DNA from: Parabacteroides merdae ATCC 43184 | GTDB lineage: Bacteria > Bacteroidota > Bacteroidia > Bacteroidales > Tannerellaceae | Length of the DNA stretch: 64,000 nt | Assembly: GCF_025151215.1 (NCBI RefSeq) | Contig: NZ_CP102286.1 | Location: 1,178,001-1,242,000 of the forward strand | Reading direction: 5' to 3' | In this document: one piece after another, positions 17,249-25,972 of the stretch | How positions within the stretch are numbered: position 1 is the first letter of the stretch | How the letters are laid out: each line of letters begins with the position of its first letter | Position numbers and translations under genes: made by a program | The notes under the pieces: model-generated | Seen by the model: only the letters and a program-made list of their open reading frames with translations | What the model was told of the DNA's origin: nothing | The model's database searches: none

Positions 17249-17256
17249 TACATTTG
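17249..17256 (+). promoter_or_regulatory. -7 box of the LytTR/FHA cluster
   Basis: TACATTTG lies 35 bases before the LytTR gene. It would drive the first two overlapping genes and perhaps the whole cluster. Confidence 0.5.
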
Positions 17257-17291: not shown

Positions 17292-17684
17292 ATGGAGCGA
17301 TATTTAATAATTAAGACGAGAGATGAATTATTGCGTATCAAAATAGGGCAGATCCTCTATTTTGAAGCAGATAGAAATTACACTAAACTACTTTTATCTA
17401 ACGGAATTCAATTCACATTTGCAATCAACATAGGAAAAATTGAAGAAATATTGGAGAAACAAGTCGCAGGTTGTAACACAATCCTGATGCGTGTAGGTAA
17501 AAGCCATATCATTAATAAAAATCACATCTTGCAGATAAATTTACCCAAGCAGAAGCTATTATTGCTAACGCAGGATGGAAAACCGAGGGAGTTGGTGATA
17601 TCCAAGGATCCCTTGAAGGTATTGAAAGATACGCTCGAAAAGGAAATGGGAAAACCTGAAGAACCAAAAGTTGTTACAGAATGA
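17292..17684 (+). CDS. LytTR-domain DNA-binding protein
   Basis: 130 residues that are essentially a single LytTR domain: TRDELLRIKIGQILYFEADRN, YTKLLLSNG, INIGKIEEIL, MRVGKSHIINKNHI and a C-terminal strand. There is no receiver domain, so it is a stand-alone regulator that may respond to a partner. The stop overlaps the next ATG by four bases (ATGA), coupling it to the FHA protein. In this cluster it is the likely transcriptional output. Confidence 0.85.
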   Translation: MERYLIIKTRDELLRIKIGQILYFEADRNYTKLLLSNGIQFTFAINIGKIEEILEKQVAGCNTILMRVGKSHIINKNHILQINLPKQKLLLLTQDGKPRELVISKDPLKVLKDTLEKEMGKPEEPKVVTE

Positions 17685-18334
17685 TCATCAGAATTGGAAA
17701 AGCTAGCGATAATGATTTTGTAGTAAACGACCCTCATGTAAGCCGGTATCATGCAAAGCTGATCCGTGAAGAGGGGGGATGTTGGCTACTTGAAGATTTG
17801 GGATCGACAAACGGAACATTTGTCAATGGTGCCCAGATCGTTAAGAAGCATGTTACTCCCAGCGATACGATCAAGCTGGGAGATAATTATGTGTTAAACA
17901 TTTCCGAAGCCTTGAAGTCCAACAACGATTACAGCGAAGAGTTTGCTGCGCTGAAGCAAGTTTACGATAATTACATTCAAGCAAAGGTTAAGATACAATC
18001 TTCTAATCAATTTAAGACCAGATTATTCCAGTCTCTTCCATTTGCTCTTCCCGGTGTAGTGGGGGTTGTGATCGGTTTCCTAGGGAAAGGAAGTCCGGAA
18101 CTGTTCGGATTGAGTCTGTTTATTACGATCTGTGCTCCGACCGTCGGTATCTACCTGGGTGCGAAACAGTCGGCCAAGATCCCACAGTTGCTGCAAGATC
18201 TGACCAATCAATTCAAAATCGATTATGTTTGCCCCAAATGCGGAACGTTTTTGGGTGAAATACCCTGGGAATCATTGCGCAATAGAAAACAATGCCCGAT
18301 GCCTTCTTGTAAAGCTAAATGGGTGAGCGAATAA
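17681..18334 (+). CDS. FHA domain protein with membrane segments and zinc ribbon
   Basis: 217 residues. The N-terminal FHA domain (residues 1-80) shows IRIGKASDNDFVVNDPHVSRYHAKL and GSTNGTFVNG, so it should bind phosphothreonine. A coiled linker is followed by two hydrophobic stretches (about 117-160, with LPFALPGVVGVVIGFLG and LFITICAPTVGIYLGA) and a C-terminal zinc ribbon (CPKCGTFLGE...CPMPSCKAKW). The order implies a membrane-anchored phosphopeptide receptor with both ends cytoplasmic. Ligand and function are inferred from context. Confidence 0.85.
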   Translation: MIIRIGKASDNDFVVNDPHVSRYHAKLIREEGGCWLLEDLGSTNGTFVNGAQIVKKHVTPSDTIKLGDNYVLNISEALKSNNDYSEEFAALKQVYDNYIQAKVKIQSSNQFKTRLFQSLPFALPGVVGVVIGFLGKGSPELFGLSLFITICAPTVGIYLGAKQSAKIPQLLQDLTNQFKIDYVCPKCGTFLGEIPWESLRNRKQCPMPSCKAKWVSE

Positions 18335-18411
18335 GAATCTGTTTCATATACTAAAAGTAATACTTTCGTACAGTAAACCCAAACATTTGATTATAAGGAA
18401 CTATTTTGTGC

Positions 18412-18440
18412 TTGGATGTCAGCTCGTTTCCCTACTTTTG
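18412..18440 (+). promoter_or_regulatory. Internal promoter before the acidic protein gene
   Basis: TTGG at 18412 and TACTTTTG at 18433-18440 are spaced near the consensus, 29 bases before the ATG at 18469. No Shine-Dalgarno is visible. Confidence 0.5.
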
Positions 18441-18468
18441 TTTCCAGAAAATTTAATTATAACATTTT

Positions 18469-18708
18469 ATGCAAGAAGAGGATTACACATTCGTGACTTT
18501 AGACAGCGACGATGCTATACTGACCGACGCTGTTATTGTGGGTGTGGACGGGGAAAACGACTTGTCGGATGTTGTAATGATTGACGAAAGTATTGATGTT
18601 TCTGATTTTATTACATTATCCGATGACACTATTATGTTGTCCGACGCAGATATGCTGGATACATATTCAACCGATATTGACGGATCTGATATATCGTTCA
18701 TTTTATGA
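18469..18708 (+). CDS. All-acidic 79-residue protein
   Basis: Not recognised as a family member. By my count it has 19 Asp and 4 Glu and no Lys, Arg or His, with many Ser and Thr spaced between acidic residues (for example LDSDD, LSDDT, LSDAD). The opposite strand is also open, but this frame is supported by the ATGA overlap of its stop with the next FHA gene and by its position between two FHA genes. It could be a multisite substrate of the nearby kinase or a charged scaffold; both are inference. Confidence 0.7.
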   Translation: MQEEDYTFVTLDSDDAILTDAVIVGVDGENDLSDVVMIDESIDVSDFITLSDDTIMLSDADMLDTYSTDIDGSDISFIL

Positions 18709-19220
18709 TTTCCGTTAAATGTCCACATTGCCATGTTGGGTTAAAGGTAGACGAGGGGAAAATTCCCCTCGATATCACCTCTTTCAAATGCCCGAAGTGC
18801 AGACAACCGATTCCAGTCTCTTTGCTATCTATGGAGAAAGGAAGTGTCGCATCTGAATCGGAAACGGTTCTGATACAGCCTTTTCGTATGACGACCGGAC
18901 ATCTCTCTGTAATTGCAAATGCTGATACGCCGGAGCAAACTTTCCCTCTTCAGGAAGGTGTCTATATCATCGGACGAAAATCCAAGGCATCTACTGCTAC
19001 GATCGGTATTGTGACGGCTGATAAATCAATGAGCCGAGAACATATCCGGATCGAGGTAAAAAAAGATGCCAAAGGAGGCTATAAACATTATCTTTCTGAC
19101 AATAATAGTAAAAATCATACGTTATATAATAGCAATTACTTAGAGAATGGAGAGATTGTCGTACTCAATAATAATGATGAAATTATTATTGGTCGCACAG
19201 TTCTCCGATTTAATGAATAA
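18705..19220 (+). CDS. Zinc-ribbon plus FHA domain protein
   Basis: 171 residues. The N-terminal zinc ribbon has CPHCHVGLKV and CPKCRQPIPV (residues 5-38). A linker carries SESETVLIQPF, which looks like a phosphothreonine site of the ETxxL/I type found ahead of FHA domains. The FHA domain follows (about 62-171): YIIGRKSKASTATIGI, SMSREHIRIEV, LSDNNSKNHTLYNSNYL. Soluble. An intramolecular switch, where the phosphorylated linker binds its own FHA, is a plausible inference known from other FHA proteins such as GarA/OdhI. Confidence 0.85.
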   Translation: MISVKCPHCHVGLKVDEGKIPLDITSFKCPKCRQPIPVSLLSMEKGSVASESETVLIQPFRMTTGHLSVIANADTPEQTFPLQEGVYIIGRKSKASTATIGIVTADKSMSREHIRIEVKKDAKGGYKHYLSDNNSKNHTLYNSNYLENGEIVVLNNNDEIIIGRTVLRFNE

Positions 19221-19234
19221 AAATAGTCTATGCT

Positions 19235-20038
19235 ATGAATATAACGATCGGCAACCCCTGGGCAGTCAGTGAAAAAGGAGGCAGATTGAATAATGAAGAT
19301 TCTATCTTTCCTTTGCCGGAAACGGCAAATTCCAATCAAAACTTATTTTTGGTATGTGATGGTGTCGGGGGGGCTGAAAAAGGGGAGATTGCAAGTTCAT
19401 TGGCTTGCGAGTCTTTCCAGACTTTTTTCTCAACTTTTCGTGAAGGTGAGCCGAACGCAGATTTTATAAATAAAGCGATTCGTTATACCGAAGCACGTTT
19501 TGATGACTATGTAGCAATTCATCCGGAAGCCAAAGGAATGGCAACCACCTTGACCATGACCTTTGTAGGTACGACCGGCATAACCTTGGCGCATGTGGGG
19601 GACAGTCGGATTTACCATTTCCGGAAAGGAGAAATCTTGTTCCAGACTGAAGATCATTCATTGGTTAATTCGTTAGTGAAATTAGGAAAAATCACCCATG
19701 AAGAGGTTGCACATCACCCACAGCGGAATGTGATCATACGGGCTATCCAAGGGACGGACCGTCCGACAGAGGCTGATGTCGTACTTTTGGATGATATCAA
19801 GGCTGGTGATTTTTTGTTCATGTGTTCGGATGGTGTACTCGAACGTCTTAACAATGATGAGCTTTCGGATATATTCAAGCATTTAGGTGGTCCGGAAGAG
19901 ATTAAAAACGCAATCATGTCCGCTTGTAGCGGGAAAACACACGATAACTTTTCTTTTTATATCATACCTATACAAAATGTGTTAGATTCCGTAGGAATTA
20001 AACAAAATATTCTTTCATTCCTTTATTCTTTTATATAA
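19235..20038 (+). CDS. PP2C-family Ser/Thr phosphatase
   Basis: 267 residues with all PP2C metal motifs: NNEDS near residue 20, VCDGVGGAEKGEIAS near 41, GMATTLTMTF, HVGDSRIYHFR, TEDHSLV, FMCSDGVLE and DNFSFY. It should remove phosphate from Ser/Thr in the cytoplasm. It lies 14 bases after the zinc-ribbon FHA gene and 45 before the kinase gene, the usual phosphatase-kinase pairing. The last 20 residues are hydrophobic and may contact the membrane. Confidence 0.92.
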   Translation: MNITIGNPWAVSEKGGRLNNEDSIFPLPETANSNQNLFLVCDGVGGAEKGEIASSLACESFQTFFSTFREGEPNADFINKAIRYTEARFDDYVAIHPEAKGMATTLTMTFVGTTGITLAHVGDSRIYHFRKGEILFQTEDHSLVNSLVKLGKITHEEVAHHPQRNVIIRAIQGTDRPTEADVVLLDDIKAGDFLFMCSDGVLERLNNDELSDIFKHLGGPEEIKNAIMSACSGKTHDNFSFYIIPIQNVLDSVGIKQNILSFLYSFI

Positions 20039-20044
20039 ATAACG

Positions 20045-20052
20045 TAATTTTG
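20045..20052 (+). promoter_or_regulatory. -7 box before the kinase gene
   Basis: TAATTTTG followed by GCAGACTA, 32 bases before the kinase ATG. This could give separate kinase transcription. Confidence 0.45.
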
Positions 20053-20083
20053 GCAGACTAATAGAATTGCGCATAGTATAGTT

Positions 20084-21910
20084 ATGAATTTGCCAAACGG
20101 ACATGTTCTTCAGAATGGAAAATATCGGATCACTCATGTAATCGGTCAGGGCGGCTTTGGTATAACATACAAAGGCGTCTGGTATACGGAGGTGAAGGGA
20201 TCGTTAGGAACCGTACAGACAGAGGTGCCTATTTGCATAAAAGAATACTTCTTTAAAGACTATTGTTACAGGGAAGCAGAATCATTTGCTGTCAAGGTGC
20301 ATTCCGAGACAGGAAGGGTTCTTTTCGATAAATTCAAAGAGAAACTTATCAAGGAAGCCAAAATTCTTTCTGAAGTTCACCATCCTCATATAGTGAATGT
20401 GCTGGAAGTTTTCGAAGAAAACGGCACGGCTTATATTGCCATGGAATATATTCCCGGTTGTTCACTCAAATATATGATGGACAGGGAAGGCATATTGCCG
20501 GAACCGAAAGTCCTCAGATATGTTCGCCAGATAGGAGAAGCACTCCAGTTTGTACATGAAAAGAACATTCTTCACTTGGATATCAAACCCAGCAATATCC
20601 TGATTGACTCGTCAGGGAAAGCACGTCTGATTGATTTCGGTGTGAGCAAGCGATATGACATCGAGCAACAGGAAACAAGTACGACCATGCTTACCTTATC
20701 AAAAGGATTTGCCTCGATCGAACAATACGATAACGAAGGAACACAAAGTTTTTCACCCTGTCCGGATATCTATTCGCTCGGTGCTACCATGTATAACCTT
20801 TTGACAGGGAAGATTCCGACCGAATCTATTTTGCGGGCAACACGTCCTTTGCAGAATCCGTCGGAACTGAACAGGAATATATCTCCTAAGACAGAAGCCG
20901 CTATAATCAAGGCAATGCAAATCATTCCGGCCGATCGTTTCCAAACGGTGGATGAAATGATGGCTGCATTAGATTTTCCTGCGGAAGAAGAAATACCTGC
21001 AAATGAGTTGCAAAATACAGACGGGCAGGAGGCGGATGGTGAGACAACGGTCATACATCCGAATGAGCAATCGCCTCTGAATGAGGAGGACGAAGATCGT
21101 ACGATTATAAATAGCGAAGAAATTATTTCTCAGCCCTCTAAGAAAAAAAGAAAAGGGATGCTGATATCCGTGCTTATTGCTATATTTGCCAGTGCAGGAT
21201 CTGTTGTCGCTTTTCTGGTGCTGGGGAACAAAACCTCTACGAAACCGGATGTAACGGAGTTGATTAGCCCGGTCGAAGAGGAAAAAGATTCAATAGGCAT
21301 CTTTCAAGACACAACTGTTTCGGAGGTGAAAGAAGCATCTATGCTTAGCGAGAAGGATAAGAAAACAGAGGCAGCAATGGCCCGACAGCCGGAAAAGGTG
21401 ACGCCCGTTGTTGTTGATGAACCCCGGAAGCAACCGGATACAAAGCAGGTTCCGGCTGAAGGAAATAAAATAACAATACAGCCAGTACAGCCTACTGCTG
21501 AAGAAATTGAGGCGAAATATGTCGCTTTAATAGCTTCTGGCAAGGAGAAGATGGGAAAAGCGGACTTTACGAACGCAAAGAAAGATTTCACGAAAGCGAA
21601 AGAAACCAAGTTGACGGAAGAGGTCGTACGTCTTTTGATTTCTTGTGATGAAAAGGAAGCAGCCAAACTTTTGGCCGACAGGAAAGCTCAATATGAGATG
21701 AAGAAAACTTTCGGGAACTTTACAATTGTACGAAAGAAATCGACCATGTTATATGGGGCGATCGATTCGGATGCGAACGAGCGTATACCATGTAAATATC
21801 GTAATGTCGGGATTGCCGAAAATGGCCGTGCTTTCGAACGTAAAGATGGTTTGTTCGATATCTATAATGCTGATGGCGTGTTGGTAAATGAAGGATCAAC
21901 GTATTATTAA
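20084..21910 (+). CDS. Membrane Ser/Thr protein kinase with WG-like C-terminus
   Basis: 608 residues. The Hanks-type kinase domain (about 14-297) is complete: glycine loop GQGGFG at 21-26, Lys53, catalytic HLDIKPSN with Asp166, DFG at 184-186, and DIYSLGATMYNLLTG. An acidic linker holds GETTVIHP and EDRTIINS, which look like phosphothreonine sites. One membrane segment follows (359-381, after PSKKKRKG), then a Lys/Glu-rich helical region and a WG-repeat-like end (TMLYGAIDSDANERIPCKYRN and FERKDGLFDIYNADG, in separate stretches) outside the cytoplasm. It should sense envelope state and phosphorylate the FHA partners. Confidence 0.92.
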   Translation: MNLPNGHVLQNGKYRITHVIGQGGFGITYKGVWYTEVKGSLGTVQTEVPICIKEYFFKDYCYREAESFAVKVHSETGRVLFDKFKEKLIKEAKILSEVHHPHIVNVLEVFEENGTAYIAMEYIPGCSLKYMMDREGILPEPKVLRYVRQIGEALQFVHEKNILHLDIKPSNILIDSSGKARLIDFGVSKRYDIEQQETSTTMLTLSKGFASIEQYDNEGTQSFSPCPDIYSLGATMYNLLTGKIPTESILRATRPLQNPSELNRNISPKTEAAIIKAMQIIPADRFQTVDEMMAALDFPAEEEIPANELQNTDGQEADGETTVIHPNEQSPLNEEDEDRTIINSEEIISQPSKKKRKGMLISVLIAIFASAGSVVAFLVLGNKTSTKPDVTELISPVEEEKDSIGIFQDTTVSEVKEASMLSEKDKKTEAAMARQPEKVTPVVVDEPRKQPDTKQVPAEGNKITIQPVQPTAEEIEAKYVALIASGKEKMGKADFTNAKKDFTKAKETKLTEEVVRLLISCDEKEAAKLLADRKAQYEMKKTFGNFTIVRKKSTMLYGAIDSDANERIPCKYRNVGIAENGRAFERKDGLFDIYNADGVLVNEGSTYY

Positions 21911-21917
21911 CGTGTTT

Positions 21918-22865
21918 ATGAAAAGACTTTGGATTTTAACTCTTTTTGTTGCGTTGCCGATGTGTTTGCTGGCTCAACAAAAAACAGAATATAACAGAAA
22001 AGGTGACGAGGCGATGAAACGCTTGGACTATAGCGATGCAAGGATGTGGTATGAAGAAGGTGTCGTGCAATGTGATCCTTACAGTATCGAGCAGCTCACA
22101 TCGATTTGGTTAGCCAACCAGAGAATGCGTCCATCAATGCACAGTCTGATGAACAAGTGTCGGGCTTGTCTGGGACTGATGGCCAATAATGAGGATACAA
22201 CAGCCATTTCGCAGCTGATAATCTATTATACCGAGGGGATAGGAACTTCCAAAAACGAAACTTTGGCCCAATCCTGGCAAGATCGTCTGGAAACACTTCG
22301 CAAACCGGTAGAGCCCGTTTTCTATCCTTCTGCCAACCCAATAAAGCCAGATACCCCCAAAGAACCGATGAAGTTCTTTATTGGTTATGCCTACTCCATA
22401 GAAGCACCTTATGGCTTGACAGTGGGAGGGGTGAAATCTCGTTTGGGTTGGTTCCTGCGTTTTAAGACCAATCTAGGTTTTAAGGAGTACGACGGGGAAT
22501 GCCGGGGAACAGATGAGTTTGTCGGTCCTACTCCCGATAATCCGTTTTATTTCACGAATAAGAAAAAGGTGAATAACTATGCCGGTACAGCTGGTTTGGT
22601 TGTAAAATGTACATCCTGGTTATATACGTCCGTAGGTTTAGGATATGGCAGTCGGGAATTATTATGCGAATATATCACAATCGATAATTCGGATTATAGA
22701 ATAGAAAAATCCTATTGGGTGAAGAATTTGGATTATTCTTATAGCGGGTTAGCTGCCGATCTGGATGTAATGGTTAAGTTCGGTCCTGTGTTTGTAAGTG
22801 CAGGGTGCAATACGTTGAATTTTAAATATGTTGATTTGAATGCCGGTGTCGGTCTGTTTTTCTAA
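21918..22865 (+). CDS. Exported protein with helical N-domain and small barrel
   Basis: About 315 residues. ATG 21918 gives a signal peptide (MKRLWILTLFVALPMCLLAQQ); an upstream ATG overlapping the kinase end is less likely. Residues about 20-140 look like Sel1/TPR helices (GDEAMKRLDYSDARMWYEEG). The second half has strands typical of a small outer-membrane barrel (VGGVKSRLGWFLRFKTNLGF, TSVGLGYGSRELL, ending VGLFF). It follows the kinase closely, so it may be the envelope element that the kinase's outer domain reads; that is inference. Confidence 0.72.
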   Translation: MKRLWILTLFVALPMCLLAQQKTEYNRKGDEAMKRLDYSDARMWYEEGVVQCDPYSIEQLTSIWLANQRMRPSMHSLMNKCRACLGLMANNEDTTAISQLIIYYTEGIGTSKNETLAQSWQDRLETLRKPVEPVFYPSANPIKPDTPKEPMKFFIGYAYSIEAPYGLTVGGVKSRLGWFLRFKTNLGFKEYDGECRGTDEFVGPTPDNPFYFTNKKKVNNYAGTAGLVVKCTSWLYTSVGLGYGSRELLCEYITIDNSDYRIEKSYWVKNLDYSYSGLAADLDVMVKFGPVFVSAGCNTLNFKYVDLNAGVGLFF

Positions 22866-22877
22866 TAAGAATTATTT

Positions 22878-25082
22878 ATGAAACACATATACTCAATCTT
22901 TTTATCAGCTGTTTCACTTTTATGGATGCTTTCCGGATGTGTGGAAGATCCGGATATGGATACGCGTTTGCAGAAAGCAAAGGCTCCGGAGGTTTCCGAG
23001 ACTTCAATGGAAGGAGAAGCATATGCTTCTTCGATCACTTTAAAGGCTCAAATAATGAAAGAGAACGGTTTGCCAGTAAAAGAATGTGGGGTTTGTTGGA
23101 GTACCCAAACAGGAACGGAGCCGCTTGAGAACATGCGTAACAAGCGATATACAAAAGCTGATAAAATAGAAAACCACAATTTTACAGCTACCATATCCAA
23201 TTTGGAAGATAGTACAAAATATTATGTATATGCTTATGCTATTAATGATATAGATACTGCATTTTCAAAAACAGAAGGAGCGTATACGACAATAAATGGT
23301 ATTGGAGAAGTTGCGACTTTGGATGTGGATAGTGCCACAGTAAAAGCAACTTCCACTTGGGTAAAAGGGAAAGTTAAGAATCGGGGAGTCGGCATTGAGA
23401 AATTAGGTTTCTACTATAAGAAAAAGAAACAAACCGGAGATATCGAACCTTCGGATCAAGATTCCGTTATCACATACGAAGGGAGTGACTTGGCAACTGT
23501 CGATACTTTCTCCTGCCAGATTACGAATCTGGAGCCGGAAACTTGGTATTATGTCCGTGCTTTTGCCAAAAATCAGTTTGGCGAGTTTGCTTTTAATGTG
23601 GACTCTTTTAGGACTACAGATGGCAAACCTTTTGTCGGTAAGTTGAGTCTGATAAAAGACAGTACGACTTTCACCACAGCCGATCTGTCTGCTTTCTTGA
23701 TCAACGAGGGAGATGCACCTGTCAGTGCCTATGGTTTCTGCTGGAGTGTAGAAGAAGAGCCAACGATAGAAGCCGATACAATCACTTGTACGAATCTTGC
23801 GGATAATGGCAAATTTACAGGAAGGATCCGGGGCTTGGAATCGGCCAAAAAATATTATGCAAGGGCCTATGCCATAAATGACTTCGGTACGGTATATAGT
23901 GAAGAAGAAATTACGATTTCGACAAAAAGCGAGAAGCCGAATATTATAACATTCCCCATCACCCTTGATTCGATCAAAAGTGATGGAACAGTTCACATTG
24001 GCGGGGAGTTGCAGAATGGCGGAAACAGTGCTGCTACAGAGTGGGGAATTTGTTGGTCTTCAAGCAATAAGGAGCCGAGTATCAAGGATAATCATGTTGC
24101 TGTAGAAGACTCGATTTTCACATATGCTTTATCGGCATTGAAAGGGGCTACAAATTATTATGTAAGAGCTTACGCTGTAAATGAACATAGCCTTGTCGGG
24201 TATGGCCAGACACAAACATTCAAGACACCTGACATCTTTACGGAAAAGAGCATATACATAGGTGAAGACCGTCAATATTCGGCAAGCTTTGTGCTAAACG
24301 GACAAGCCTATATCGTTGGTGGGGATTTAGGAGATAAACGCAGTAACGAACTTTTTAGTTATAATGTGGAAACAAATGAATGGAAATCCCAACAAGGATG
24401 CAGTGTCGCCTATTCGCACATGGCTGCTACCGTCTACAATAATAGAGCCTATGTCATTGGAGGACTTGACAAACAAGTGGGAATAGAATGTCAAGTGTAT
24501 ACATCTGAAAATAATAGTTGGTTATTCGAATTCCCTTCGTTGCCGAAGGGACGATTTAACTCTGTCTGTTTTGTGTATCGTGATTCCTTGTACGTTTTTG
24601 GTGGTACTGACAATAGTAGCAATATGAATGAAATAGTACGTTATGATCTTTCAACTCAAAATAGTGGAGAATGGACTACAATTGCCAAAGTGAACGAAGC
24701 AAACCAAAGAGGAGGCGTCGCATTTGTTGTAGAAGATAAAGTATATGCAGGTTTAGGAGAAAAGAGTAATGGTATTCGTAACGGCTTCTACGTCTCTTCG
24801 GATAGCTTGACAAAATGGGAGCTGATTCCCTCTATACCTGCACAGCTCGGTGTTATTTCTTCTGGTGTTTATGATGAACAGAAAAAGAGCTTCTTTATGA
24901 TTGACAACGACGGAAAAATTTGGGAATACAATTTGACTACAGAGCAATGGACTTCACGCTCGTTATGGATTCGTATGAAAAATTATCACATGTTCATGCT
25001 GGATGGATCGATCTATATTTTAGGGCAAGATATCTATCAAAAGAATAAATTCACTGTATACAATCCAATATGGGATAATTGA
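22878..25082 (+). CDS. Lipoprotein with FnIII-like repeats and kelch propeller
   Basis: 734 residues. The lipobox MLSGC places the lipid on Cys21. Residues about 35-455 hold four or five beta-sandwich repeats, each ending in a Y-Y-V/A-R-A-Y/F-A-x-N motif (KYYVYAYAINDIDTAFS, WYYVRAFAKNQFGEFA, KYYARAYAINDFGT, NYYVRAYAVNEHSL). From about 460 on there are kelch repeats (AYIVGGDLGDKRSNELFSYN, AYVIGGLDKQ, LYVFGGTDNSSNMNEIVRYD). It is probably exposed on the outer membrane as an adhesion or ligand-binding component. It ends the signalling cluster, 12 bases after the barrel gene. Confidence 0.85.
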   Translation: MKHIYSIFLSAVSLLWMLSGCVEDPDMDTRLQKAKAPEVSETSMEGEAYASSITLKAQIMKENGLPVKECGVCWSTQTGTEPLENMRNKRYTKADKIENHNFTATISNLEDSTKYYVYAYAINDIDTAFSKTEGAYTTINGIGEVATLDVDSATVKATSTWVKGKVKNRGVGIEKLGFYYKKKKQTGDIEPSDQDSVITYEGSDLATVDTFSCQITNLEPETWYYVRAFAKNQFGEFAFNVDSFRTTDGKPFVGKLSLIKDSTTFTTADLSAFLINEGDAPVSAYGFCWSVEEEPTIEADTITCTNLADNGKFTGRIRGLESAKKYYARAYAINDFGTVYSEEEITISTKSEKPNIITFPITLDSIKSDGTVHIGGELQNGGNSAATEWGICWSSSNKEPSIKDNHVAVEDSIFTYALSALKGATNYYVRAYAVNEHSLVGYGQTQTFKTPDIFTEKSIYIGEDRQYSASFVLNGQAYIVGGDLGDKRSNELFSYNVETNEWKSQQGCSVAYSHMAATVYNNRAYVIGGLDKQVGIECQVYTSENNSWLFEFPSLPKGRFNSVCFVYRDSLYVFGGTDNSSNMNEIVRYDLSTQNSGEWTTIAKVNEANQRGGVAFVVEDKVYAGLGEKSNGIRNGFYVSSDSLTKWELIPSIPAQLGVISSGVYDEQKKSFFMIDNDGKIWEYNLTTEQWTSRSLWIRMKNYHMFMLDGSIYILGQDIYQKNKFTVYNPIWDN

Positions 25083-25084
25083 AT

Positions 25085-25972
25085 ATGAACAGAGCAACTA
25101 TCTTAGAAGAAATCCGGAGAAATGTTGATTTGCTGTCAGTGACAGATCAGCCGGAATACCAATACATTCCGCTACACCAGAAACCTTCACCATCGGTGAC
25201 GGCACTCAGGGAGATCATGACCTTGCTCCGCAAGGTTATTTTTCCCGGTTTCTTCGGAACGGAACAGGAGGCACAGACGGATTCCATACAATATTATACG
25301 GGTGTATATCTGGAGCAGGCCTACGACCTGTTGCAGGAACAAATCTATAATGGCTTGTGCTTTGAAGTCGAACGTTGTTGTGATTCCAAAGATCGTGCTT
25401 CTGAAATAGCCATTGCTTTTATCAATAAGGTTCCACATATCAAGTATCTTCTATCGACAGACGTGAAAGCTATCTTGGATGGTGATCCGGCAGCCAAAAG
25501 CCCCAGTGAGATTATTTTCTGTTATCCGGCAATTCATGCCATTCTTTATCAGCGCGTAGCACATGAGTTACTGAAGCTCGGTGTGCCTGTGATTCCACGT
25601 ATTATAACGGAAATGGCCCATTCGGATACAGGAATAGACATTCATCCGGGAGCGCAAATCGGAGAATATTTCAGTATCGATCATGGTACGGGGGTTGTGA
25701 TCGGGCAGACGGCTATAATCGGTAATCATGTCCGCCTTTATCAAGGTGTGACATTGGGTGCAAAAAGCTTTACCTTGGACGAAGAAGGATTGCCTCTGGA
25801 CGTACCGCGCCATCCGATTATCGAAGATTATGTTACAATCTATTCCAATGCCTCCATTTTAGGGAGGATCACTATTGGTCACGGCTCCGTGATTGGTGGT
25901 AACATCTGGCTTACCCATAGCGTTCCACCTAATTCCAAAGTATTGCAGACTCGTGCTGTCGAAGATAAATAG
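25085..25972 (+). CDS. cysE: Serine O-acetyltransferase
   Basis: Transfers acetyl from acetyl-CoA to serine for cysteine synthesis. About 295 residues with an N-terminal helical region and a C-terminal left-handed beta helix: MAHSDTGIDIHPGAQIGEYFSIDHGTGVVIGQTA is the catalytic region (seen around residues 178-211) and VTLGAKS, HPIIEDYVTIYSNASILGRITIG and VIGGNIWLTHSVPPNSKV follow. ATG 25085 is chosen over the overlapping TTG at 25079. It directly follows the kelch gene but has a metabolic role. Confidence 0.95.
   Translation: MNRATILEEIRRNVDLLSVTDQPEYQYIPLHQKPSPSVTALREIMTLLRKVIFPGFFGTEQEAQTDSIQYYTGVYLEQAYDLLQEQIYNGLCFEVERCCDSKDRASEIAIAFINKVPHIKYLLSTDVKAILDGDPAAKSPSEIIFCYPAIHAILYQRVAHELLKLGVPVIPRIITEMAHSDTGIDIHPGAQIGEYFSIDHGTGVVIGQTAIIGNHVRLYQGVTLGAKSFTLDEEGLPLDVPRHPIIEDYVTIYSNASILGRITIGHGSVIGGNIWLTHSVPPNSKVLQTRAVEDK

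Follow-up and report, generated by a model that had tools for sequence, protein, structure and literature searches.

In the mycobacterial PknB/GarA and corynebacterial OdhI systems, a Hanks-type kinase and a PP2C phosphatase are accompanied by a small FHA protein carrying a threonine motif before its FHA domain, and the type VI secretion threonine phosphorylation pathway (PpkA/PppA/Fha) is built on a kinase-phosphatase-FHA trio. In the LytTR regulatory systems (LRS) HdrRM and BrsRM of Streptococcus mutans, as described in excerpts of PMC6193735, the gene for a LytTR regulator adjoins a membrane protein gene, and direct repeats, mostly of 9 bp with a 12-bp spacer (a 21-bp period), lie upstream of the regulator operon's own promoter. 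Inhibition of the regulator by the membrane protein, and positive feedback once that protein is lost, also belong to the definition of an LRS. Here, we describe a set of eight genes at positions 17292–25082 of a 64,000-nucleotide stretch of the Parabacteroides merdae ATCC 43184 chromosome (hereafter the window; contig NZ_CP102286.1, positions 1,178,001 to 1,242,000 of the forward strand), which belongs to a genome assembled as a single, 4.38-Mb contig. The set looks like an undescribed surface-to-gene signalling circuit. In the literature searched, outside which subscription papers and preprints lay, no paper joined an FHA domain to LytTR, and none concerned this locus as judged by title and opening of the abstract; excerpts of PMC12669032 mention neither a kinase, LytTR nor FHA.

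Conservation of an eight-gene block

A preliminary description of this DNA had read the eight open reading frames (ORFs) as one candidate envelope phospho-signalling system, an interpretation that is partly supported as a whole. All eight ORFs are present on the plus strand as claimed, and the roles assigned to the kinase, phosphatase, two FHA proteins and LytTR protein agree with Pfam matches, the catalytic residues being kept in nearly all orthologues. The first gene encodes a putative DNA-binding protein of the LytTR family (17292–17684, 130 aa; Pfam LytTR, 6e-10). It is followed by FHA1 (17681–18334; FHA, 2.4e-19), which combines an FHA domain with two hydrophobic segments and a C-terminal Cys4 zinc-ribbon-like domain. 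Next come a 79-aa acidic protein (18469–18708), FHA2 (18705–19220; FHA, 5.2e-12), with an N-terminal CxxC zinc ribbon, a linker and an FHA domain, and a 267-aa PP2C phosphatase (19235–20038; PP2C_2, 1.1e-15). The last three genes encode a transmembrane Hanks-type kinase (20084–21910; Pkinase, 6.6e-41), a protein with a signal sequence, a helical solenoid and a predicted outer-membrane beta-barrel (21918–22865), and a lipoprotein with FN3-like repeats and a kelch propeller (22878–25082; kelch, 9.4e-27, and fn3, 4.5e-09). Neither the barrel gene nor the acidic protein gave a Pfam match.

We assessed conservation in 38 Parabacteroides genomes (the genus set), which hold 34 loci besides that of the window, and in 61 loci of named relatives (L190–L250), titled mostly Parabacteroides, Tannerella or Tannerellaceae; the two sets have species in common. 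Co-occurrence in order, which the preliminary description had proposed as a check, was borne out: tblastn recovered all eight genes in order at 28 of the 34 genus loci (one of the 28, L103, has its kelch gene cut by a contig end), and five others stop at contig ends. Nor were the members scattered within the genus; the one exception is the split locus of genome G144 (L117, L260 and L261), where the five genes from LytTR to PP2C and those from the kinase onwards lie ~25 kb apart on one contig, both parts being kept. The locus closest to the window by identity was L086 (G129). Among the named relatives, 35 of 61 passed a stricter script test, all with the same order and strand. Some of the other 26 end with the contig; in 12 of the 26 the acidic gene fell under the E-value limit of 1e-5, although every one of these 12 gaps contains a short acidic ORF, and the barrel of L222 and L233 was found by tblastn even though the script test had failed these loci. 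PP2C is present in 35 of the 38 genus genomes, and two of the three lacking it have a completeness of 82 and 86% (the third is weighed below).

Median identities to the window indicate that the inside of the system is conserved and its outside changes fast. LytTR is the most conserved of the eight proteins (88%, 30 orthologues), followed by FHA1 (77%), FHA2 (71%), PP2C (68%) and the acidic protein (67%), with lower values for the kinase (65%) and barrel (59%) and the lowest for the kelch lipoprotein (37.5%).

Directly after the kelch gene lies a hexapeptide-repeat transferase gene of the serine acetyltransferase type (SAT, 25079–25972), which is found in 27 of the 34 genus loci (in G144 it travels with the kinase part). 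Few of the records not titled Parabacteroides have this gene, which is perhaps co-transcribed with the genes before it. Most records not titled Parabacteroides hold the eight genes together with SAT absent, and PPDK, upstream in the window, occurs in only 11 of the 34 genus stretches.

Three predicted transcription units and a predicted LytTR operator

TAnnTTTG is given as the -7 box of the Bacteroidetes primary sigma factor in excerpts of PMC7366714. This box lies no more than 70 nt ahead of LytTR in 29/29 regions (shuffle expectation 1.0) and of the acidic gene in 32/32 (2.5), and no more than 52 nt ahead of the kinase gene in 32/33 (1.9). In the 52 nt that precede each of the other genes, the box is nearly absent (FHA1 0/31, FHA2 0/34, PP2C 1/34, barrel 0/29, kelch 1/30, SAT 0/27), shuffle expectations over all tested genes being 0.1 to 2.5. 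A few of the LytTR boxes stand at other distances, from 29 to 62 nt. The predicted -7 boxes of the window are TACATTTG (17249–17256), TACTTTTG (18433–18440) and TAATTTTG (20045–20052), all on the plus strand. Because the box is conserved before LytTR, the acidic gene and the kinase gene only, we predict three transcription units, with possible read-through between them: LytTR-FHA1 (unit 1), acidic-FHA2-PP2C (unit 2) and kinase-barrel-kelch (unit 3). The break in G144 falls at the border of units 2 and 3, and the displaced kinase gene still has its box. Hence, the claim of a single system holds as far as the eight genes form a conserved unit, with three predicted transcription units instead of one operon. 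Similarly, of the several ATGA overlaps noted previously, two are clear in the window (LytTR/FHA1 and acidic/FHA2), and only the latter is conserved (-4 nt in 33/33 genus-set loci, compared with 6/31 for LytTR/FHA1). The barrel gene probably starts at 21918 and not at 21888, where its longest ORF begins, since most of the 120 matches listed (of 288) cover ~97% of the query and start about ten residues later; an overlap between the kinase and barrel genes is therefore doubtful.

The gap between FHA1 and the acidic gene holds an element conserved in alignment, which we predict to be the LytTR operator (18364–18397, plus strand): an imperfect tandem repeat, TTYGTACA.. followed by TTTGATTA.., with a 21-bp period. 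These same sequences supplied the repeat-unit pattern, into which neither the 21-bp period nor the spacing was built. In the named set, with 46 intergenic regions, 45 repeat-unit pairs occurred at an offset of 21 (shuffle 0.02) and 9 at 42; across 32 regions before the acidic gene in the genus set, 25 pairs occurred at 21 and 30 at 20–22. A search with the same unit gave no pairs at 20–22 bp before LytTR (29 regions), PP2C, the kinase gene or SAT; repeats of other types before LytTR were looked for by alignment only. In its own genome, the 34-base operator is unique at up to 3 mismatches. A wider LytTR regulon was considered and rejected: a looser pattern matched 13 places against 3 for a reversed control, and 12 of the 13 were at the limit of 3 mismatches.

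The spacing of this element is also constrained. Counted by locus, operator start and -7 box are 68 bp apart in the window and 67–69 bp apart in 31 of the 32 rows of the genus set; the remaining row, L104, lacks an operator match, and L090 has an additional, nearer -7 box. The 29 rows not titled Parabacteroides show 68–69 bp in 12, 79–80 bp in 11 and 100–101 bp in 4, with no box in L208 and no operator in L246. These distances differ by steps of 11 and 21 bp, so that approximately the same helix face would be kept. No conserved -33 box before the acidic gene is visible in the alignment. Because of the repeat period, the fixed promoter spacing and the lack of a visibly conserved -33 box, we favour activation, and LytTR quite probably activates unit 2. 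At the level of sequence, the presence and order of the eight genes, the three promoter boxes and the spaced repeats are firmly established.

Signalling proteins and their threonine motif

The kinase sequence has the elements expected of an active Hanks-type enzyme (glycine loop, lysine, catalytic aspartate/asparagine and DFG), with a catalytic loop, HLD, of the non-RD type: GQGGFG, the lysine, HLD[IV]KPSN and DFG are each found in 32/32 proteins, as is a single transmembrane segment. It is the sole Pkinase match (E ≤ 1e-10) in its genome, and exactly one such match is found in 18 of the 38 genus genomes. The AlphaFold2 model (pLDDT 71.3, pTM 0.48) places a kinase domain, a disordered linker (residues 314–354; acidic in composition), a membrane helix (356–381), a second disordered region (382–467) and an outer part of three helices followed by a beta domain (472–605), with the activation segment (186–225) at low confidence. 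The preliminary description had called the outer domain WG-like; the match in the window is weak (E 0.016, under the cut-off), but among 36 orthologues 10 score at E ≤ 0.01, the best at 5.4e-07.

The two other products of unit 3 would lie in the envelope. The AlphaFold2 model of the barrel gene (pLDDT 90.0, pTM 0.52) has helices at residues 2–128 and strands at 152–314, the protein having weak similarity to Sel1 repeats (E 0.01). That the kelch protein is a lipoprotein, as proposed previously, agrees with a cysteine followed by x-[DEN]-[DE] in 30/30 genus-set sequences (the window and 29 orthologues) and in 36/42 of the named set, a stricter lipobox pattern matching 17/30. This N-terminal signal resembles the Bacteroidetes surface-export signals of PMC5080379 without the lysine or serine that these contain in the excerpts available, and the lipoprotein is probably on the cell surface. 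When four proteins were scanned against PHROGs, it alone gave matches, to families of unknown function.

No receiver domain was found in the LytTR protein. In FHA1, the patterns SRxH and SxNGT[FY][VI]N are kept in 32/32 orthologues, and two hydrophobic segments are predicted in 31/32 at a strict threshold and 32/32 at a threshold of 1.5. FHA2 keeps SRxH in 34/34, and its zinc ribbon matches MJ0042_CXXC above the cut-off. Both FHA proteins are weakly similar to FhaB and OdhI in NCBIfam, all below cut-off. The window genome has three FHA matches, two of which belong to this locus. The third (G000:C1:552907-553137, L003) has CxxC pairs and an FHA domain in an FHA2-like layout; nearby are a 175-aa protein that looks exported and an ORF rich in His and Asp.

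The PP2C phosphatase keeps N[EQ]D, DGxGG and DN[FY]SF in 35/35, GDSR in 34/35 and C[ST]DG in 32/35 orthologues. The acidic protein has 384 homologues at E ≤ 0.001, and TFVT, DFIT[LI] and D[IL][SAT]F are each kept in 34/34; it has no match in Pfam, NCBIfam, PADLOC or PHROG. One close homologue, P0200 (86% identity), comes from an assembly of 447 contigs with the source name Phocaeicola sartorii and may represent a mislabelled genome or a transfer.

FHA domains prefer threonine sites such as those of a motif shared by several of these proteins, [DE].?T[ILVM][ILVM]. This motif occurs in the kinase linker in 32/32 orthologues (shuffle mean 1.9), usually twice, compared with 6/32 (5.4) in the kinase outer part, and both copies in the window kinase fall in the disordered linker of the model. 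It is also found in the FHA2 linker in 30/34 (shuffle 1.6) and in the acidic proteins in 30/34 against 10.2 by shuffling. Applied without change to records not titled Parabacteroides, the motif was found in 13 of 22 kinase linkers (shuffle 1.1) and 20 of 29 FHA2 linkers (0.9), compared with 5 of 22 kinase outer parts (3.9). The control proteins fall below their shuffle means (FHA1 0/32, LytTR 0/31, PP2C 6/35, barrel 3/29), and the kelch lipoprotein, at 18/30, is inside its shuffle range (mean 14.0, maximum 20).

A proposed circuit, its alternatives and its relatives

From these observations we tentatively propose an envelope-to-gene module in which a Hanks-type kinase is joined to a LytTR circuit across three transcription units. 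Unit 3, with the kinase, the barrel and the surface kelch lipoprotein, would act as the sensor of the envelope, and the kinase would phosphorylate threonines in its own linker and on FHA2. Unit 1 would be the switch: whether or not the FHA domain of membrane-bound FHA1 binds a kinase-phosphorylated threonine would decide, in one sense or the other, if FHA1 holds LytTR or frees it; this gating of LytTR by the kinase through FHA1 is conceivable, and we hold it with reserve. Freed LytTR would bind the repeats and activate unit 2, whose products would be an effector pair (the acidic protein and FHA2) and a phosphatase that resets the system. Whereas the gene set and its order, the conserved active sites, the promoter boxes, the phased repeats and the threonine motifs are seen in the sequence itself, we infer DNA binding by LytTR, activation and not repression, phosphorylation of the threonine motifs, FHA1 as the holder, the acidic protein as a multi-site target, and the signal.

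Parts of this arrangement recur beyond the genus. The core LytTR-FHA1-x-FHA2-PP2C-kinase is found whole or in part, with another acidic protein in position x and other envelope genes. Distant Bacteroidota loci hold FHA1 with the same zinc-ribbon end (its C-terminal cysteine pattern is common to them), FHA2, PP2C and kinases arranged in related orders, and some hold LytTR, which lies directly 5' of FHA1 in L120, L122, L251, L258 and L259. The order in L175 (LytTR, lipoprotein, FHA1, AP, FHA2, two exported genes, PP2C, kinase) is that of the window with insertions, and the exported gene scanned there has WG repeats. AP denotes an undescribed acidic family, most members of which have an SFSEAFxxAR..GxGGxFEWxGxxYxT segment and EF-hand-like stretches; none reached a cut-off (five scanned against Pfam, two against NCBIfam). 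Its genes (L120, L122, L123–L125, L127, L175–L180, L253, L256, L258 and L259) mostly adjoin FHA2 or sit between FHA1 and FHA2. In a phylum sample of 395 genomes, AP matches 4, with FHA1 adjoining it in each, and FHA1 matches 27 at E ≤ 1e-10, mostly through the FHA domain alone; at E ≤ 1e-5, FHA1 matches 12 of 119 Bacteroidales genomes, nearly all of which are the sole representatives of their genus; two of the 12 are of this genus, and some match in the FHA domain only. We consider it possible, with more reserve than for the module itself, that the locus represents a phylum-wide surface-to-transcription class, in which a barrel and surface lipoprotein would gate a kinase, contacts between phosphothreonine and FHA domains would control a membrane-held LytTR activator, and a single operator would drive an acidic multi-site target, a GarA-like FHA switch and a phosphatase, the core being combined with exchangeable acidic partners and envelope sensors.

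Several further observations concern these distant loci. L256 has a row of several acidic, similarly built genes at the AP position. In L125, L253, L178, L179, L255 and L251, the FHA/kinase cluster includes or adjoins a Peptidase_C14 (caspase-family) gene whose N-terminus is signal-like. L127 has FN3-like matches to kelch. A genus member (L121, G152) has another cluster with a kinase, a PP2C, a weak FHA1-profile match and adjoining large ORFs. Three candidate relationships were rejected. The acidic protein as a shrunken AP had a profile probability of 0.1% and a score of 10.6, below at least 10 of 40 column-shuffled controls; AP as a genus-wide partner was matched in 2 of 38 genomes (G135 and G139), both in the model-building set and both with an acidic-type locus; and candidates for the barrel and kelch genes in distant loci (L177_9 and L179_1) were FGE-sulfatase and PKD/laminin-G proteins by Pfam.

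A number of findings weigh against the proposed circuit. The repeats stand before unit 2 only and not before the regulator's own promoter, and they match the published LytTR repeats (excerpts of PMC6193735) in period and not clearly in letters. In distant loci, a crude search for 9-mer repeats gave nothing convincing as an operator; LytTR was not seen in L123–L126, L176–L180 and L253, some of whose contigs are short, and in L175 a lipoprotein gene separates it from FHA1. The acidic protein and AP share the slot between FHA1 and FHA2 with no detectable homology. FHA1 reads Gly-Lys at a site where Gly-Arg is usual. The threonine motif was chosen after the window had been seen, and the orthologues counted for it are not independent; in distant clusters it occurs in 5 of 7 kinases (not in L120 and L122), 2 of 11 FHA2 linkers and the first 60 residues of 3 of 13 AP proteins. 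Within the closer relatives, L230, L234, L244 and L246 lack the 3' genes although the contig continues. The third genus genome without PP2C, G145, also lacks any Pkinase match and is 99% complete, so the system can be lost.

Another reading, which we regard as rather unlikely, is that two adjacent circuits are present: the kinase, PP2C and FHA proteins would control an enzyme or an envelope process post-translationally, in the manner of GarA/OdhI, and LytTR-FHA1 would only set the dose of unit 2. The threonine-motif linker of FHA2 precedes its FHA domain as in GarA/OdhI, the NCBIfam similarities to FhaB and OdhI point weakly, below cut-off, in the same direction, and unit 3 can lie apart from units 1 and 2. 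However, the operator, unique in the genome at up to 3 mismatches, precedes the unit that encodes the phosphatase and FHA2, which ties the circuits together, and the proposed module also accords better with LytTR being the most conserved protein and adjoining FHA1 in several distant loci.

It is improbable that the genes form the control part of a conflict, defence or secretion system governed by phosphorylation. Such a role could be suggested by the Peptidase_C14 gene in six distant loci, the variable acidic partners, the low conservation of the surface protein, and PADLOC matches of the kinase (PD-T4-6 and MAD6) and phosphatase (PDC-M21C). These PADLOC matches are confined to the kinase and phosphatase and centred on those domains, however, and the NCBIfam score for MAD6 is 124.2 bits against a cut-off of 460. 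Moreover, the Parabacteroides locus has no recognised effector gene, no near match was found in a plasmid collection, and defence systems are usually patchy in their spread, whereas PP2C is nearly genus-wide. Finally, that LytTR is a repressor, that the repeats bind another protein or that the genes are merely stable neighbours is very improbable: the operator is a prediction and SAT is a frequent neighbour too, but the repeat period, the promoter spacing and the lack of a visibly conserved -33 box fit an activator, the eight genes keep together without SAT in most records not titled Parabacteroides, and PPDK is seldom upstream.

If the proposed module is correct, Bacteroidota would gain, in gut symbionts, a complete kinase-based route from surface to promoter that belongs to neither the two-component nor the anti-sigma systems. 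The sole Pkinase match and two of the three FHA matches of the genome lie here, so a few deletions would probe most Hanks-kinase signalling in this organism, and the model predicts an exact operator and exact threonines, making the circuit quickly testable.

Compared with described systems, the locus shares a kinase-phosphatase-FHA trio with PpkA/PppA/Fha, but FHA1 scores 36.7 bits against the TagH (TIGR03354) cut-off of 120.25, and LytTR, barrel and kelch genes are present. With PknB/GarA and OdhI it has in common a Hanks kinase, a PP2C, a small FHA protein and a threonine motif before the FHA domain; it differs in its zinc ribbon and transcription regulator, and the NCBIfam scores fall below cut-off for OdhI (32.1 of 200 bits), FhaB (59.8 of 125) and PknB_PASTA_kin (184.6 of 450). 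Serine/threonine kinase and phosphatase genes also occur in the kinase-kinase-phosphatase (KKP) module of Pf prophages, as far as excerpts of PMC11341870 describe it, whereas the genes here are chromosomal and genus-wide, with one kinase and with FHA, LytTR and envelope genes in addition. The closest known kind is the LRS: as in those systems, a LytTR-family regulator (over the Pfam cut-off) adjoins a transmembrane-protein gene, here FHA1, and tandem direct repeats with a 21-bp period lie upstream of a promoter. Unlike in LRS, the membrane protein has an FHA domain and a zinc ribbon, the repeats precede the next unit and not the regulator's own, and the set includes a phosphatase, a second FHA protein, envelope genes and a kinase, so that the locus is best compared to an LRS joined to a Hanks kinase.

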